From Promethearchaeota archaeon (GTDB taxonomy: Archaea; Asgardarchaeota; Lokiarchaeia; Sigyniarchaeales; SOKP01), in assembly GCA_019894955.1 (NCBI GenBank), contig JAGXNQ010000009.1:1974-37009 (forward strand): a DNA stretch of 35,036 bases, in the 5' to 3' direction. Both the position numbers and the translations under genes were made by a program. The notes below the pieces were generated by a model. It saw only the letters and a list, made by a program, of their open reading frames with translations. It searched no databases and was not told the DNA's origin. Positions 7,513 to 26,199 of this stretch are shown in pieces; positions within the stretch are counted from its first letter, which is position 1; every line of letters starts with the position of its first letter.

Positions 7513-7890
7513 ATGAATATGGATCCGAATACTCCCGAAACATTAGATGACCTTCTAAAAAAACTACTGGGTGCCATTCCAGAAGTAAAAGCTGCAGCAA
7601 TCGTATCAGCTGAAGGATTGCCAATAGCATCAGCACTACCTCAAGGGGTAGATGAGACAAGAATCGCCGCAATGACGGCCGCTCTTCTATCATTGTCCGA
7701 GAGAGCCATTATCGAAATGGCGAAGGGTGACTTCGATCAATTATATGTAAAAGGAAGCGCGGGATATCTCCTCATCCTGCAAGCCGGTCCAAACGCAGTC
7801 CTCACAGTTTCGACGTCCCCTGAAGTACGTCTTGGACTTATCTTATTGGATTGTCGAAGAACGTGTGAGAAAATCTCAAAGTTAATTTAA
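7513..7890 (+). CDS. Roadblock/LC7 domain protein
   Basis: A single-domain Roadblock/LC7 protein of the kind that regulates small GTPases in bacteria (MglB), archaea and eukaryotes (dynein light chains, Ragulator). The 125-residue product starts with a helix (TLDDLLKKLLGAIP), then the strand AAAIVSAEGLPIASALP, a long helix (ETRIAAMTAALLSLSERAIIEM), the strands QLYVKGSAGYLLILQAGPNAVLTVST and a final helix. It is unusually GC-rich for this genome (about 50% around 7741-7800) with C/G-ending codons, which suggests selection for high expression or recent transfer. Its partner could be a small GTPase such as the one at 12266-12820, but this is inference. The TATA-like element near 7460 suggests a short leader. 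Confidence 0.92.
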   Translation: MNMDPNTPETLDDLLKKLLGAIPEVKAAAIVSAEGLPIASALPQGVDETRIAAMTAALLSLSERAIIEMAKGDFDQLYVKGSAGYLLILQAGPNAVLTVSTSPEVRLGLILLDCRRTCEKISKLI

Positions 7891-7960: not shown

Positions 7961-9553
7961 TCATCTAAAATATTTAGTAATTAGCTCAGTCGTGGTTTCA
8001 AAAGGGTTAATTTTACCTTTAAAATGAATTAGTTCTTGCTCATATTTTTTTTCAAAAGCTTTCGTAAACAATTCCAATTTTTTGGAAAGAATTGGTAAAT
8101 TCTTGGTTGATACTAGAGCGATAATTACATGTTTACCATATGCAAAATAAATTTTTACACCTTCTTTATCAATAATGCGTAAATTTTTTTGTTCGTTTGT
8201 GATTTCAGAGAGCAAGCTTAATATACCGGAAAATCCTCCTGTGATTAAATCTTCATTTGGCAAATTAACATTTTCTGATCCGGAAGTAAAATTTTGAGTG
8301 AATAAACACACTGCACTGTTAAACGCATATAGGTTTCTTAATGTATTTTTCCAATCTGCTTCTCTTGCAGTCAATATCTCTGGTAAAGGTATTATCCATA
8401 CCAAGATAACAATTAAGATAAAGGGACTAAGTCCATCTAGGAAAGATGGGATCCAATAGAAGAAAACGGGATTTTTAATGTGAGTTTGGGTGAGTAAGAA
8501 ATTAAATAAAATCCCTAAAACAAAACCACCAATGAAGATGAATAAGAAGCTACATACCATTCTTCCTCTGAATCTAATTGTATTTCTCTCAGTAGAAAAA
8601 TCACCAGCAAAGGTAAAGATAATCATAAAGGAAATTGGAACAGAAACTCCAAAAAATATTGAAGCAAATATTCCCTCAGTAGTTTTATCTCCCGAAAAAA
8701 GGATAATGGATGAGATAAACAAAATTCCAGCTGCAAATGTCCATTTTCGCCCTAAATTATCTAATAAGACTCCGATTATTAAAAATGAACTCATAAAAAA
8801 AAAAATGAAAATTGGAGTGATTACATTAAATCCATATTCAATTGGAAAAGAATTTCCTAATACTAATGCCAACGCAAATAAGGCAATCATATAACCAGAG
8901 ATATGCAGGGATCCCATTAAGATTTCTATAAATTTCTTTTCAGACTTCAATCTTTCTTTGGTTTCTTTATAAGAATAATTTCTAGATATCCAAATTAAAC
9001 TTAATGTCAACAAAATCTCTATGATTTGGATTATGAGAATAAAATTAAAACTTAGAGATACAATTAAATGTGAGATAATAAATGATAAGAAAAAAAAATA
9101 TCCAAATAGTCTCCCGCGGTTAAGAATATTTGATTCATGGAAAATAATGGTAATTAAATTAATTAAAAATATGCCAGTAAAAAATGTTATCAATATAAAA
9201 CCAATAGTACTTAAGATGTTATCCAAAAATACAAAAAAAATACAAAAAACAACGGATCCCGCAGAAATTAGCAAAAGTTTCACTCTATCTTTAAAAAAAT
9301 CAACGATTATCCCCCCAATTATGATAGTTACAATAACCGTGAGGATGATAGTTGAACTAATTATATCAGATAAAATATCTTCTGGGTTGAAATTAATTAT
9401 ATAGGTTACTAAAAAGTTTATTGAGATTGAGGAAAAAATGAACGAAAATAAAAAGTATACAAATCTAAATCGAGAAATTGCAATATCTCTCAAAAATAGT
9501 TGTTTGAAAGTCATCATCTTCGAATAGCGAGCAAAAATTTCATTTAATTCCAC
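7961..9553 (-). CDS. MFS-like multi-pass membrane protein with a C-terminal longin/roadblock-like domain
   Basis: Residues 1-395 are strongly hydrophobic, with about twelve predicted membrane helices. A loop DNLGRKWTF (265-273), after a helix and before the next, resembles the MFS signature (D-x-x-G-R-R/K), and GIIVDFFKDRVK near 81-92 is the equivalent in the first half. The tail (about 405-510) is soluble: the strand LYAFNSAVCLFTQNF, a helix LITGGFSGILSLLSEIT, then strands LRIIDKEGVKIYFAYGKHVIIALVS and a long amphipathic helix. This order and the 'G-hydrophobic-x-L-F' pattern resemble the longin/roadblock-like sensory modules common in Asgard genomes. The start is GTG 9553, after GAGGGA. It is convergent with the Roadblock gene. 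The transport substrate is unknown; the tail may tie the transporter to small-GTPase signalling. Confidence 0.75.
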   Translation of the reverse strand: MELNEIFARYSKMMTFKQLFLRDIAISRFRFVYFLFSFIFSSISINFLVTYIINFNPEDILSDIISSTIILTVIVTIIIGGIIVDFFKDRVKLLLISAGSVVFCIFFVFLDNILSTIGFILITFFTGIFLINLITIIFHESNILNRGRLFGYFFFLSFIISHLIVSLSFNFILIIQIIEILLTLSLIWISRNYSYKETKERLKSEKKFIEILMGSLHISGYMIALFALALVLGNSFPIEYGFNVITPIFIFFFMSSFLIIGVLLDNLGRKWTFAAGILFISSIILFSGDKTTEGIFASIFFGVSVPISFMIIFTFAGDFSTERNTIRFRGRMVCSFLFIFIGGFVLGILFNFLLTQTHIKNPVFFYWIPSFLDGLSPFILIVILVWIIPLPEILTAREADWKNTLRNLYAFNSAVCLFTQNFTSGSENVNLPNEDLITGGFSGILSLLSEITNEQKNLRIIDKEGVKIYFAYGKHVIIALVSTKNLPILSKKLELFTKAFEKKYEQELIHFKGKINPFETTTELITKYFR

Positions 9554-9741: not shown

Positions 9742-10878
9742 ATGGATTACTGGGATATCGTAGCGGAACTGTATAATACGACTCTATCGTTTTCTTTCAT
9801 CATCTTAGGATTTTTAATGTTTTATATTGCCACAAAAGGTTTGAGAGCAAAAAATCACTATGGAGCTATTTCTACGACTGTGTGTGGTGTTTGTTTCATA
9901 ATATTTGGCTATTATAATTCAGTTGCTTTATTTTTTCCTTTTCCTTATAACGGTTACATGGTATGGTGGATAGGAGTGGTCCTAATTTTAAATATATTGT
10001 TCGCAATTATTAGTAAACGTTTTATTAAAGGAATGGCAAACGATCTAGGATTGGAAGAAGAGCAAGGTACATCACATCTAAGGAGATACATAATTAGAAT
10101 GACTCAACATGATCCTTACGAAGAAGAAATTTCAATTAGAATGGAAGTAATAAGGAAATCATTCCACTTATCAGGTTTTTTAATTTGGGTGGCATTTTAT
10201 GGATTTTTATTTATTCCTCCAATCACTCAAATTATAAATGACAGTATAATCGTGATGATAAATCAAATCGGTCCTGCTTATACCATTCTGTGGGGTCCTA
10301 TATCAATGTATCCATATCCAGTCGGAGCTCCTCAAGCTATAGCTGGTTTGACCATGATGGCATTAATTGGTTCTCTCGTATTTGCAATCATTTCTGATAT
10401 ATTTCGCATACTGTGGGGTCCAGAATACTCCGTATTTAACTTTATAACACATTCAATGTTAAGAGATAAGGAAAGAAATGCTGCAGGACCCCACATTTAT
10501 ATCATGGTGGGATTCATTTTATCTTTCATGTTATACATGATGGAATTACTTGATATCTCTGCTTATTTTGCTGGGATACTTATAGCTTGTTTGTCTGATG
10601 CCGCCGCTGCTTTAATAGGACGAATTTTCGGGAAGCATAAAGTAAAAGTAAGAAGTAAAGAAACAAAATCGATTGAAGGATTTATAGCAGGAGTAGTAGT
10701 TGCATATGTTATAGGATTGATTATTGTAGGTCCCATCTATGCAATAATTGGAGCTACTATATTTCTCATAACAGATTATTATCCTAAGTATACTGCTGAC
10801 AACATTTTAAATCCGATACTAATTCCTATTGGTATTCAATTCTTTATTGTTATTTTACAATTGCCAGTGGGATGGTAA
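9742..10878 (+). CDS. Polytopic CTP-dependent lipid kinase of the dolichol kinase / diacylglycerol kinase Dgk1 type
   Basis: An integral membrane protein of 378 residues with about nine hydrophobic helices. The C-terminal two thirds carries the hallmarks of the SEC59/DGK1/VTE5 family: RKSFHLSGFLIW (138-149), SDAAAALIGRIFGKHKV (285-301), KSIEGFIAG (309-317) and TADNILNPILIP (351-362), which form the CTP and lipid-binding site. It probably phosphorylates a membrane lipid alcohol (polyprenol, isoprenoid alcohol or a diacylglycerol-like lipid) using CTP. The extra helices before residue 130 are not part of the core. A HAD-family phosphatase follows after 41 bases on the same strand. The exact substrate cannot be told from sequence. 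Confidence 0.8.
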   Translation: MDYWDIVAELYNTTLSFSFIILGFLMFYIATKGLRAKNHYGAISTTVCGVCFIIFGYYNSVALFFPFPYNGYMVWWIGVVLILNILFAIISKRFIKGMANDLGLEEEQGTSHLRRYIIRMTQHDPYEEEISIRMEVIRKSFHLSGFLIWVAFYGFLFIPPITQIINDSIIVMINQIGPAYTILWGPISMYPYPVGAPQAIAGLTMMALIGSLVFAIISDIFRILWGPEYSVFNFITHSMLRDKERNAAGPHIYIMVGFILSFMLYMMELLDISAYFAGILIACLSDAAAALIGRIFGKHKVKVRSKETKSIEGFIAGVVVAYVIGLIIVGPIYAIIGATIFLITDYYPKYTADNILNPILIPIGIQFFIVILQLPVGW

Positions 10879-11887: not shown

Positions 11888-12217
11888 ATGGAAAAATCTA
11901 AATTAAAAAATATTGACAATTTTGGCTGTATTGGAGAAATCGAACTTTTAATTGGAGAAAAGAATGAAACTTTTGCTAATGATCTTGCTTCTGAAGTCAT
12001 AACAGCACAATCCCTAAATAAACGTGTTGAATATTTATCAGAAAGAATAATAATTTATTCCAGCAAATATACTCTTGATGAAAATCAAGACCTCCTCATT
12101 TTTGAATTAGTTAATAGAAAATCAAAGAATGAAGAAAGAGAGTACTATTATATTGCAAATAAAAATTTGCACGCTTCTTACTTGCTCAATTTAATAAGTA
12201 AGGGAGAAATGAAATAG
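11888..12217 (+). CDS. Small soluble protein of unknown function
   Basis: A 109-residue acidic-to-neutral product with no membrane segment or cysteine motif (single Cys). Predicted order: short strands around GCIGEIELLIGEKN, a helix (NETFANDLASEVITAQSLNKRVEYLSERI), a strand (IIIYSSKYTL), further strands (QDLLIFELVNRK and EREYYYIANK) and a final helix (HASYLLNLISKG). The alternation suggests a small alpha/beta fold. It lies between the HAD phosphatase (same strand, 137 bases upstream) and the convergent small GTPase gene (48 bases between ends). No ribosome binding site of the GGTG type is seen. I recognise no family. Confidence 0.7.
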   Translation: MEKSKLKNIDNFGCIGEIELLIGEKNETFANDLASEVITAQSLNKRVEYLSERIIIYSSKYTLDENQDLLIFELVNRKSKNEEREYYYIANKNLHASYLLNLISKGEMK

Positions 12218-12265: not shown

Positions 12266-12820
12266 TTAGATGATTTCTGCCCGTTGCATCATTAATTTTG
12301 CCAATGCATAAAAGATATCTTCGATATTTTTACCATCTTTAGAAGAACATTCAACAAATCCATAAAGATTATGGTTTTTAGCGATATCAAAAGCATCTTT
12401 AGAAGAAACGGCTCTTTTAAACCGAAGATCCAATTTTCCCCCGACCATAATAACGGGTAATTGATTTTCATCTCCCCTAAAACCTCGTTTGAAAATCTCA
12501 ATCCAATCCTCAAAATTTTTCATGCTAGAATATCTTGTAATATCATACATGAATATCCCCCCAGACGCGCCAAGTACATAGCTTTGTAACAGAAACCTAA
12601 ATCTTTCTTCACCTGCAAAATCCCAGATTTGTAAGGTTACAGAATAATCTTCTACTTGAATTTTCTTAATATGAAACTCTACTCCAATGGTAATAGAGCT
12701 ATCAGTTTTAAAGACACCCGTGAGATAGCGATTCACTAGTGTAGTTTTTCCAACCCCTCCATCCCCAAAAAGACATATTTTGAACATTAGATCACTTTTT
12801 TCATCGCTTCTCGCTTGCAT
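12266..12820 (-). CDS. Ras/Rab-like small GTPase
   Basis: A eukaryote-like small GTPase, a class greatly expanded in Asgard archaea. In numbering from the longer GTG start at 12832: the G1 loop is GDGGVGKT (23-30), switch I SSITIGVEF with the conserved Thr, G3 WDFAGEERF (70-78), G4 GGKLDL (131-136) and G5 ECSSKDG (161-167). The usual catalytic Gln of DxxGQ is Glu here, and the usual Asn of NKxD is Gly, so hydrolysis and nucleotide specificity may be altered. There is no C-terminal prenylation cysteine. ATG 12820 is preferred over GTG 12832. Likely partners are Roadblock/longin proteins; two Roadblock genes lie within 5 kb, but none is adjacent. Confidence 0.95.
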   Translation of the reverse strand: MQARSDEKSDLMFKICLFGDGGVGKTTLVNRYLTGVFKTDSSITIGVEFHIKKIQVEDYSVTLQIWDFAGEERFRFLLQSYVLGASGGIFMYDITRYSSMKNFEDWIEIFKRGFRGDENQLPVIMVGGKLDLRFKRAVSSKDAFDIAKNHNLYGFVECSSKDGKNIEDIFYALAKLMMQRAEII

Positions 12821-13042
12821 TTTAAGTATCACTTCTCAATAGCATTAATGTATTTATCGATCTATCTACTAATATTTTCTTAATTTTCAAGATTTATTAA
12901 TTTACTATACATAATATAAAAATAGCTTTTTAAAAATCATTCGGAAACGAAAATTACTTTTTTTTTTATTTCTAAAAATCAATTATATAACTATCAGATA
13001 TGTAATTATTATAAAAATAAAGGGGTATTTTATGTGATATAA

Positions 13043-17453: not shown

Positions 17454-18884
17454 CTATAATAAACTCATCCATTTGGGTTCTATCCTTTCTAAAGCTTTTT
17501 CGATTTCCTTTCTTACCTCAAAATCGTCATCTCCTAAAGATTGAATCAATGGATTTATAGATTTTTCATCACAAATTTTTCCTAGCGCTTTAGCAACAGA
17601 GATTCTAATCCGAGAGTCTTTACTATGAAGCAATTCATGAAAAATTTCCAATGAATCTTCATCTTTTAGTTTTCCTAAAGCATTAATAGCCCAACTTCTA
17701 ACATAAATATCATTATCTTCTAAACATTTAACAAGAGATTTAACAGCACTAGCATTCCCGATATTTTTAAGTAAATCCACAACCGCTCTCCGAATTCTCC
17801 AATCCTCACTTTCTATTTGTGATTCTGAGATTTCAATGATAATATCTGAATTAAATTTTGATAGTGAATTAGTAATTGACCTCCTAACAGACGATTTTGA
17901 ATCATTCAAACGACTCACGAGAAGATCTATAGACTCTTCATCTACTAATTCTCCCAAAATTTTGGCACTGTATTTTCTTACTTGCCAAATACTGGCATTT
18001 ATTCCTTCACGGATAAGATTTATTTGGGATTTATCTTGTTTCAAAGTTTTTAGGATTGCTGAATAAGCTAATCTTCTTATTTTTCCATCTTTACTGTTTA
18101 GTAGTTTCATTAAAAATTTAATTGATTCAGGTTTTTTTAGTAGACCCAGAATCTTTACTGCTTCTCTCCGTGCAATTGGATTTCTTTTATTTATGATATT
18201 ATTTACGAGTTTTAAATCTCCTTCTCGTTTTATAATGGTATAAAGGGCTCTAACAGTGCTTTTCCTTATCAACTCATCCTCGTATTTTAGGAAATTGATT
18301 AAAGGTTTAATTGCTTTTTTTACACCAACATGACCTAAAAAAAGAATGGCTTGATTTATCACATGCAAATCCTCGTCATTTAGCATAAGAATTATCTGAT
18401 CTAAATCTTCTTCATCTGAGATTTTTTCTAAAGCTTTTATCGCATTTTTTCTAACAACCGCATTTTTATCATGTAGAAGATCAATAAGATATGTTTTAGT
18501 TGTTTTATTTGAAAATTCGCCCAAAATAAGAGGGATTGATTTTCTTATATTTAAATTATCAATATCCATGAAAAGCGGAAGTACTTCCTTTAAATCACAT
18601 TTCTTTATTATTTTGACAATAGTGGAGATTAAATTCTCATGAATTTCTAATCTATGTTGAGTTAATTCAATTAATGGTAAAAGCGATTCTGAATCACTAA
18701 TTTCACCTAAAAATTTTATTGCTAATGCTTTATTATCAATGTCAGGATCTTTTAATGCTTCTATATATAGAGGTAATTTAATCGATTTATCTTTAACATT
18801 GCCATTTTCAAGTATCTTTTTTCTAGCCTTTCCATTTTTCTCACGTTGATATTTAATCAATAAAATATTCTCATTTAAACTCAA
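17454..18884 (-). CDS. HEAT-repeat (PBS-lyase type) scaffold protein
   Basis: The 476-residue product consists almost wholly of about fourteen 30-32-residue helical repeats of the form 'D-x-x-(V/I)-R-x-x-A-(I/V)-x-A-L-x-x-(I/L)-x-(D/E)-x-x-x-(I/L)-x-x-L-(I/L)-x-x-L-x-D'. Examples are DIYVRSWAINALGKLKDEDS and DSRIRISVAKALGKICDEKS. Such arrays form curved solenoids that bind other proteins. No catalytic residues, signal peptide or membrane segment are seen. The start is TTG 18884, with a GTGA sequence seven bases earlier. It is the nearest upstream gene on the minus strand to the M28 peptidase (104 bases) and diverges from the GH2 gene. A partner cannot be inferred. Confidence 0.9.
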   Translation of the reverse strand: MSLNENILLIKYQREKNGKARKKILENGNVKDKSIKLPLYIEALKDPDIDNKALAIKFLGEISDSESLLPLIELTQHRLEIHENLISTIVKIIKKCDLKEVLPLFMDIDNLNIRKSIPLILGEFSNKTTKTYLIDLLHDKNAVVRKNAIKALEKISDEEDLDQIILMLNDEDLHVINQAILFLGHVGVKKAIKPLINFLKYEDELIRKSTVRALYTIIKREGDLKLVNNIINKRNPIARREAVKILGLLKKPESIKFLMKLLNSKDGKIRRLAYSAILKTLKQDKSQINLIREGINASIWQVRKYSAKILGELVDEESIDLLVSRLNDSKSSVRRSITNSLSKFNSDIIIEISESQIESEDWRIRRAVVDLLKNIGNASAVKSLVKCLEDNDIYVRSWAINALGKLKDEDSLEIFHELLHSKDSRIRISVAKALGKICDEKSINPLIQSLGDDDFEVRKEIEKALERIEPKWMSLL

Positions 18885-24792: not shown

Positions 24793-26199
24793 ATGTTAAA
24801 ATCAGATATCATCAAATCCGAAAAATCATATAATAAGCTTATATGGCCATTATATTTTGTAAATGGATTTAATTCCATCGCATTTGGCGGATTAATTATC
24901 ATAATCGTACCTTTATCCTCGCTTTTTTGGCCAGCTGAAGATTATCATGCATTAGAAATGGGTATTTTGGTAACAACGCTTTTTTGGGCTTCCTCAATTA
25001 CTGGCATTGTCTTTGGATGGATAATCGATAGATACTCTCGCATAAAAACCCTATTTATCATTTCACTTATTAGAGGTATAAGCATGATAATGCTTGGTTT
25101 TGCAACGGTTGGTCAAGGATTAGCAACATGGTGGTACTTTTTTATATTTGTTTTAATATTTGCCTTTTCCTCAGGGGGAAGTTATCCAGCTATGATATCA
25201 TTATCGAATGATATTGTTCCACAAAAAGACCGTTCTAAATTTTTTGGATATCTATCAATATTTGGGTCCATATTCATGATGTCAGGCTTTTTATTATCTG
25301 GAGGTTTGGTGGAATATGGATATTGGCGTTTTTATTTCATAGTTATTGGATTAGCGGTCTTATGTGCAGGATTGCTGTTTTTCTTTTATGTAAAAGAACC
25401 CAAGAGAGGAATTCAGAGTAAAGAATTACAATCTGTCTTGACTGATGATAATATTGAATATGATTTCAAGCTTAATAGAGAAATGATCCGAAAAACAATG
25501 CTAAGTAAAACAAATATTACTGCTCTTGTTGAGGGTATTTTTACTAATGTCTTTATGGGAAGTTTAGATATGATTATTTTGCCATATCTTCAATCTGTCC
25601 ATAATATTTCTCCATTAGTCACTGGATTATTTATCATTATCTTTGGAGGAACAGGTAGAGTTTTTGGTCAAATTCTACTCGCTCGATTTTCTGACAAGGC
25701 TGCTTTAAAGAATAGCATTAAACGCATTCATTTCATAATAATAGCATTAGTGGGAGGATCTGTAACATTTCTTCTAATGTTTTTCATTCCATTACCATTC
25801 TTCTCTGAAGAAGAGGGAGCAAATATATTTATCTTCTTTTCTTATCCAGCAGCAATTTTAATGGGGATCTTAATATTTTTTAGTGATGGTATTTCTTCAC
25901 TTTACATGATTAATCAACCACCCATAATTCAAGAAATAAATTTACCCGAAGCACAAGCCCAAATTACCTCTTGGAATCAGTTTTTAGAACATATCGGATA
26001 TGGGTTGGGTCCTTTGATTGCAGGTATCGCTATCACCTTATTCGGCCAAGATTATCAAATTAGCGCGACATTAATCGCACTTTTTAATATTCCTGGTGTT
26101 ATTTTTTGGATATTGTCAACAAAATGGTATCCTAAAGATAAGCAGGAAATCTCTGAAATACTTAAAGATAGAGCGGTTATTTTGAATTCTCGAAAATGA
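24793..26199 (+). CDS. Major facilitator superfamily transporter
   Basis: A 468-residue secondary transporter with twelve predicted membrane helices. The MFS A-motif lies between helices 2 and 3 (GWIIDRYSRIKTLFI), and a related element in the second half (ARFSDKAALKNS) marks the internal repeat. The central cytoplasmic loop (about 200-235) is hydrophilic, as expected. The gene is divergent from the sulfatase with 138 bases between starts and lies in a locus with GH2 and a beta-helix protein, so uptake of an oligosaccharide or its breakdown product is likely. The actual substrate is unknown. No ribosome binding site is visible; the transcript may be leaderless. Confidence 0.9.
   Translation: MLKSDIIKSEKSYNKLIWPLYFVNGFNSIAFGGLIIIIVPLSSLFWPAEDYHALEMGILVTTLFWASSITGIVFGWIIDRYSRIKTLFIISLIRGISMIMLGFATVGQGLATWWYFFIFVLIFAFSSGGSYPAMISLSNDIVPQKDRSKFFGYLSIFGSIFMMSGFLLSGGLVEYGYWRFYFIVIGLAVLCAGLLFFFYVKEPKRGIQSKELQSVLTDDNIEYDFKLNREMIRKTMLSKTNITALVEGIFTNVFMGSLDMIILPYLQSVHNISPLVTGLFIIIFGGTGRVFGQILLARFSDKAALKNSIKRIHFIIIALVGGSVTFLLMFFIPLPFFSEEEGANIFIFFSYPAAILMGILIFFSDGISSLYMINQPPIIQEINLPEAQAQITSWNQFLEHIGYGLGPLIAGIAITLFGQDYQISATLIALFNIPGVIFWILSTKWYPKDKQEISEILKDRAVILNSRK

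Follow-up and report, generated by a model that had tools for sequence, protein, structure and literature searches.

A lokiarchaeal gene raises the question of whether a membrane transporter can carry, as its own tail, a domain that reports to or is controlled by a small GTPase. The gene lies within a window of 35,036 nucleotides (the whole stretch of DNA analysed here) from a genome of 2.77 Mb in 244 contigs (G000), and it encodes a protein of 530 amino acids from a GTG start. An initial annotation, made from the letters of the DNA, had placed it at positions 7961..9553, which hold, the frame lying on the minus strand, and had read its product as a 12-helix MFS-like region continuing into a longin/roadblock-like domain. 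Here, we confirm the fusion of these two parts and find it to be wider than first noted; the reading of the fold was right, and the proposed GTPase mechanism is one that we infer.

The fusion gene and its relatives

An artefact of assembly or of the reading frame might have merged two genes into one, and no point in favor of this explanation was found. An intact stop-to-stop frame of 519-592 amino acids, containing both the MFS and the longin part, is present in 32 of the 34 named loci related to the fusion gene, and in the remaining two (L081 and L082) the match to the query is partial and the frame is cut by the end of the contig. All 34 loci are titled Lokiarchaeota or Lokiarchaeia, and the best named relative, from a Candidatus Lokiarchaeota MAG, is 84% identical to the fusion protein. 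Additionally, when the whole protein was searched against 195 genomes of the phylum, 160 gave a match (E<=0.001), in many cases confined to the tail; by a hand count of the matches listed, at least 44 matches in at least 33 of these genomes cover at least query residues 100-500, and they fall in families f1, f2, f3 and f7. Because the intact frame is kept across the lokiarchaeal loci, a frame error peculiar to one assembly, against which the initial annotation had cautioned, is ruled out as the source of the fusion, and we hold any such artefact to be extremely improbable. The whole protein had no match among plasmids.

The proposed search of other Asgard genomes recovered MFS-longin proteins repeatedly, with more distant examples in seven genomes (G183, G086, G093, G002, G161, G064 and G177). 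Seven distant proteins were scanned with Pfam and all seven match MFS_1 at E<=0.01; five of them pass the curated cut-off (two in L169 and one each in L193, L196 and L197), and those of L194 and L195 do not. The G064 protein (L198), which the scan left out, is 51% identical to the G183 protein in its MFS part. A blastp comparison of 20 MFS-longin proteins, with the best three matches per protein listed, suggests about four groups. Among the matches listed, the longin parts match between groups at E 1e-11 or better, and the MFS parts match within groups and weakly between them (4e-7 or worse). This sequence pattern would fit a single ancient fusion whose transporter part changed faster, as well as fusion on more than one occasion.

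The membrane region and its longin tail

In an AlphaFold2 model of the full-length protein, built from 34 sequences (those of the window and the named loci; mean pLDDT 79.6, pTM 0.70), twelve long helices span residues 28-387. Among the best 50 Foldseek matches listed for this model, the top solved structures are MelB, VMAT1 and VMAT2, and the TM score to MelB and the vesicular monoamine transporters reaches 0.73 by target length. The model and these matches bear out the 12-helix MFS-like region assigned to residues 1-395 (8369..9553, minus strand). Membership in the MFS is supported by twelve helices on an MFS fold. The Pfam MFS_1 match (E 2.9e-6), at 26.9 bits, lies below the curated cut-off of 33.4; MFS_1 is found at E<=0.1 in 27 of the 34 aligned sequences, including that of the window. 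A sequence search with the whole protein against solved structures gave none at E<=0.01.

The distribution of charge and conservation distinguishes the two faces of this region. Thirteen lysines and arginines occur in the 69 residues of the assigned cytosolic loops and N-terminus and none in the 35 residues of the outer loops, which places both termini in the cytosol. Conservation averages 0.73 in the cytosolic thirds of the helices vs 0.57 in the outer thirds, and 0.76 in the cytosolic vs 0.45 in the outer loops; together with a value of 0.69 for the longin domain, this fits a common inner partner and variable ligands. Three conserved segments stand out in the 34-sequence alignment: an invariant NRGR (residues 145-148; 9110..9121, minus strand) in the loop between helices 4 and 5, assigned to the cytosolic side from the model and the charge; GVLLDNLGRK (residues 261-270; 8744..8773, minus strand) in the loop between helices 8 and 9, with G261, D265, N266, G268, R269 and K270 invariant, which we take to resemble MFS motif A; and DFSTERNTIRFRGR (residues 318-331; 8561..8602, minus strand) around the loop between helices 10 and 11, with D318, R323 and R329 invariant. 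By our reading, just three D, E, K, R, H, N, Q, Y or W residues in the central third of a helix have a conservation above 0.6: E179 (0.62), H217 (0.73) and Y221 (1.00).

The cytosolic tail comprises about 130 residues (396-530; 7964..8368, minus strand) rather than the 105 or so first estimated. Folded alone by AlphaFold2 from an alignment with 47 relatives, it gives a model of higher confidence (pLDDT 89.5, pTM 0.86) with the order of elements typical of a longin: two strands (tail positions 10-17 and 20-26), a helix (39-57), three strands (65-68, 71-77 and 82-87) and C-terminal helices (92-108, 110-114 and 121-134). Foldseek returned 42 matches to this model at E<=0.001. Among the best 50 listed, TRAPPC1 has the highest TM score by query length (2j3t_C, 0.67), and Trs23 and Bet5 score 0.65 (3cue_A and 3cue_C); MON1, the VAMP7 longin, AP-1 and AP-2 sigma chains, LAMTOR and MglB are also matched, and a chain of a COPI leaf-GOLPH3 structure is first by E-value (TM 0.54). 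A profile of the tail matches Trs23 at E 2.2e-5 and TRAPPC1 at E 3.6e-4. When 18 tails were compared with Pfam at E<=10, Sybindin was matched by ten (best 7.6e-4) and Fuz_longin_1 by five (best 5.9e-6), in a table that also holds chance-like single matches such as TPPII at 0.001. The window's own tail, searched alone, matched no Pfam longin model and gave a weak Spore_YhaL match (E 0.22), so its longin kinship rests on profiles, relatives and fold. As a control, the tail profile had no match at E<1 among 1433 reversed frames, taken from regions fetched for longin matches, vs 66 matches forwards at E<1e-3. From its predicted fold and its profile matches, the tail is assigned as a longin domain of the TRAPPC1/TRAPPC4 type.

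Of the two folds originally suggested for the tail, longin or Roadblock, structure prediction thus favors the first, and the tail is not of an unrelated fold. A Roadblock identity was rejected, as the tail has no Roadblock leading helix and no Robl_LC7 match; Pfam found no Robl_LC7 in any of the 18 tails at E<=10, and the tail profile aligned with the neighbouring Roadblock protein, represented by a single sequence, at 0.2% probability. Roadblock/LC7 proteins such as MglB and LAMTOR have a related core fold (Foldseek TM about 0.44-0.56), but they start with a helix, according to the available part of one paper (PMC10933270), that the tail here does not have. In the full-length model the pLDDT falls below 50 in the linker (residues 393-399), and the longin is predicted with less certainty than in the model of the tail by itself; a contact between the MFS and longin parts is therefore not predicted with confidence.

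The tail domain in other membrane proteins

A profile of the 18 tails, searched within the genomes of the phylum, matches 188 of 190 (E<=1e-5). In the window's genome the profile has 16 matches (E<=10), and 12 of these reach E<=0.002. Among them are two MFS-longin proteins and five other polytopic ones, in which 5-7 predicted helices are followed by the longin, along with a longin-GTPase fusion (C42), a protein (C98, whose match has one stop flagged) in which the longin precedes four predicted helices, longins joined to additional soluble regions, and short longins that stand alone.

A census of two single-contig genomes, G162 and G177, in which membrane helices were assigned approximately by a hydropathy script, identified 48 longin frames, and in 18 of these the domain lies behind the last predicted membrane helix. 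The longin-tailed membrane proteins are MFS, other polytopic and single-pass proteins. In G162, frames at E<1e-3 were obtained for 23 of 25 profile matches, and the other two were left out. Five of these proteins are polytopic and six more have one or two predicted helices, and in each of them the longin follows the last helix; one frame has the longin before its helices, and 11 are soluble, one of them with a GTPase. The 24 matches in G177 led to 25 frames, one extra having passed in the local search: four polytopic proteins (two MFS), three with one or two helices, and 18 soluble proteins (one with a GTPase). The longin begins 6-48 residues past the last helix in 16 of the 18 membrane proteins, with gaps of 129 and 184 in the other two. 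Where a member of the single-pass group has two predicted helices, the first, near the N-terminus, may be a signal peptide. Of nine single-pass proteins, seven were scanned with Pfam: that of L174 matches Laminin_G_3 (E 2.4e-19, with DUF2341), that of L147 has a sub-threshold Big_1 match (E 1e-5), and five have no match at E<=0.01.

Comparisons between profiles connect these tails. Those of 14 other membrane proteins (seven single-pass and seven polytopic) align with the MFS tails at 99.9% probability, and six soluble longins, including a GTPase fusion, do so at 99.2%, both sets having originally been found with the MFS-tail profile. Twelve of the 14 membrane proteins were scanned with Pfam and showed no MFS match; the protein of L036 and the second of L145 were outside that scan. 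On its own, the membrane-tail profile reaches Trs23 (E 0.0021) and the soluble-longin profile reaches MON1 (E 0.0011), and among the 14 single membrane tails two match Sybindin and one Fuz_longin_1 at E<=0.1. These sequence comparisons support the view that the tails of MFS proteins, other membrane proteins and soluble longin proteins are one domain family. Asgard genomes are rich in small GTPases and longins, and the position of the longin behind a membrane helix in 18 of 48 frames suggests a concrete and testable membrane job for the module.

Several longin frames met in this survey have further features. A frame of 2042 residues in G177 (L174:2671-8796) combines the lectin-like Laminin_G_3 region with a predicted membrane helix and then the longin, a receptor-like architecture. 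Another in the same genome (L167:6500-9133) joins a HerA-type ATPase (DUF87, E 1.5e-19) to a longin, with no membrane helix predicted. In G183, where 22 of 193 first-look candidates from the longin profile were scored, L187 and L188 hold many longin-matching frames of about 1110-1155 residues, and those of L187 have the longin at the C-terminus and sub-threshold TPR_12 and MIT matches.

A possible role with small GTPases

We give an even chance to the reading in which the 12-helix part, whether an MFS transporter or a sensor that arose from one, offers through its longin a platform for a GTPase. The cytosolic longin would most likely pair with a second longin or with a Roadblock domain, and the pair would form a membrane-fixed platform for a Ras-like small GTPase. 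The conformational state of the twelve helices could then alter recruitment of the GTPase or its nucleotide exchange at the membrane; alternatively, the GTPase could govern how active the transporter is. That the protein might be controlled by a small GTPase, or report to one, is plausible, as had been proposed. Both domains, their topology and conservation, and the occurrence of the same tail on other membrane proteins are computed results; that the longin dimerises and binds a GTPase, and which way the signal would run, we infer. Several findings count toward a GTPase link. The closest solved relatives of the tail are TRAPP GEF subunits, and a longin fused to a Ras-like GTPase is encoded in the window's own genome (C42, L042:1096-1998), which has 52 Ras-like GTPase matches, as well as in both single-contig genomes. 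In the available parts of two papers, longin and Roadblock dimers are described as serving as small-GTPase platforms (PMC10933270), and the longin of Asgard multidomain proteins points, in the authors' view, to GTPase activation (PMC10936438).

The window contains a candidate for each partner, encoded by two genes that the initial annotation had pointed out. A true Roadblock/LC7 gene, the possible second half of the dimer, lies 70 bases away in convergent orientation (7513..7890, plus strand; Robl_LC7 E 4.5e-19), and a Ras-family small GTPase, a candidate for the platform's client, is encoded at 12266..12832 on the minus strand (Pfam Ras E 6.7e-44). Nine of the ten close loci (L049-L058) have at least 0.6 kb downstream; L051, with 40 bases, was left out. 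The Roadblock gene adjoins the fusion gene in five of the nine (L049, L050, L052, L053 and L055) and lies 3.7 kb from it in L057; it was not seen in L054, L056 (which holds only 661 bases downstream) or L058. Relatives of the GTPase, 58-74% identical, are upstream of the fusion gene in L050, L052, L053 and L055. The Roadblock adjacency is weak evidence, as the relatives also keep the rest of the gene order there, including kae1 and bud32.

In neither single-contig genome do longin genes lie near GTPase genes significantly more often than expected. G162 leans that way at 10 kb, with 12 of 24 longin genes at this distance or less from a GTPase gene vs 7.9 expected, a number reached by 6.6% of rotations, and within 5 kb the rotations show no enrichment (5 of 24 vs 4.5 expected). 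Nor is there enrichment in G177 by the same approach (2 of 23 vs 2.6 within 5 kb, and 4 of 23 vs 4.8 within 10 kb). The 34 named loci hold 8 GTPases vs 7.4 expected, two numbers that rest on different models. In the window's genome, 7 of 14 longin genes are within 5 kb of a GTPase gene vs at most about 2.6 expected by an approximate estimate, one of the seven being the longin-GTPase fusion itself and two being neighbours that share one GTPase. Gene order is a poor test of the link, because small GTPase genes of MK-D1 are generally outside operons with longin genes, according to the available part of PMC10933270.

Two other explanations were weighed against a GTPase platform. In eukaryotes, the longins of SNAREs and adaptor subunits act in dimerisation or sorting, and the longin here might likewise be a targeting, assembly or lid domain that dimerises or sorts the transporter in the membrane independently of any GTPase, a possibility that we regard as real but doubtful. 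The VAMP7 longin and the AP-1 and AP-2 sigma chains among the Foldseek matches are in keeping with it, as are the matches of other longin profiles of the phylum to AP-4 sigma (E 0.028) and to AP-2 mu (E 0.0056), the lack of a significant GTPase neighbourhood in the two single-contig genomes, and the presence of the domain on very different membrane proteins, as expected of a general sorting or dimerisation tag. Some longins, such as those of SNAREs, are credited with roles outside GTPase regulation (PMC10933270). However, the top sequence matches of the tail are GEF subunits, of TRAPP and MON1, and longin-GTPase fusions are found in the same genome.

The other explanation concerns the membrane part, which may have lost transport and may act purely as a receptor that signals through the longin. 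The clustering of conservation on the cytosolic face and the few conserved polar or aromatic residues in mid-helix (E179, H217 and Y221) would suit such a receptor, and the tail is also carried by 5-7-helix proteins and by single-pass proteins with large N-terminal parts. Against this, charged residues of the cytosolic loops (D85, D265, R269, K270, D318 and R329) are invariant, a feature of the gate in working MFS carriers, and carriers differ in their substrate pockets anyway; we consider a pure receptor unlikely. For the preferred reading, of a transporter or transporter-derived sensor whose longin serves a GTPase, the nearest functional parallel known to us is SLC38A9. The two differ in transporter family and in the cytosolic tail, which in SLC38A9 is no longin, and there is no evidence of common descent. 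The likeness lies in its working as a transporter that reports to a small GTPase: it is an arginine transceptor of the lysosome that acts, together with Ragulator, on RagA/B (PMC9515494).

In eukaryotes, the TRAPP subunits belong to a soluble core complex. Two of them from the Sybindin family, TRAPPC1/Bet5 and TRAPPC4/Trs23, share the longin topology of the tail and are its best profile matches, whereas the domain here ends a 12-helix membrane protein. The longin and longin-GTPase proteins described from Asgard archaea (PMC10933270, PMC4917890; available parts) are of the same domain family and lineage, and their GTPase-fusion form is also present in this genome. Combinations of longin with GTPase and with TRAPPC3 (PMC10933270) and with Vps28-C, TPR, Ig-like and HTH/PCI domains (PMC10936438) are reported, as are, citing other work, 41 longin-like domains in Lokiarchaeum, five of them fused to Arf-like GTPases (PMC4917890); longin domains appear in lists or general terms in the available parts of PMC7997004, PMC9834061, PMC11291895 and PMC6141808. 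Unlike the proteins described here, no longin fusion to a transporter or polytopic membrane protein is mentioned in the available parts of PMC10933270, PMC4917890 and PMC10936438. Likewise, among the titles and abstract openings listed in literature searches that covered few subscription papers, none dealt with a longin joined to a transporter or to a receptor-like membrane protein, although such a fusion may be recorded elsewhere. The arrangement, which had been proposed as new, is not singular, as the tail is widespread in the phylum. The available part of PMC10933270 also states that no internal membrane compartments have been shown in the two cultured Lokiarchaea. We tentatively suggest, as a conjecture that may well prove wrong, that in Asgard archaea a juxtamembrane TRAPP-type longin is the common output of transporters, 7-helix-like proteins and single-pass receptors, some of them lectin-like, and switches small GTPases at the plasma membrane; if so, the longin-GTPase machinery of eukaryotic endomembranes would derive from surface signalling rather than from vesicle traffic.

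Other genes of the window were also noted. A second MFS gene at 24793-26199 (MFS_1 E 4e-39) encodes a protein with no longin match in the tail-profile search of its own genome. Pfam gave nothing at E<=1 for a 109-residue frame at 11888-12217 (plus strand), between the genes for a HAD phosphatase and the GTPase. A membrane-type CTP_transf_1-like gene (9742-10878, plus strand; E 1e-6) runs divergently from the fusion gene and is kept beside it in several relatives. Finally, a HEAT-repeat protein of 476 amino acids (HEAT_2 E 6.9e-66) is encoded from a TTG start at 17454-18884 on the minus strand.
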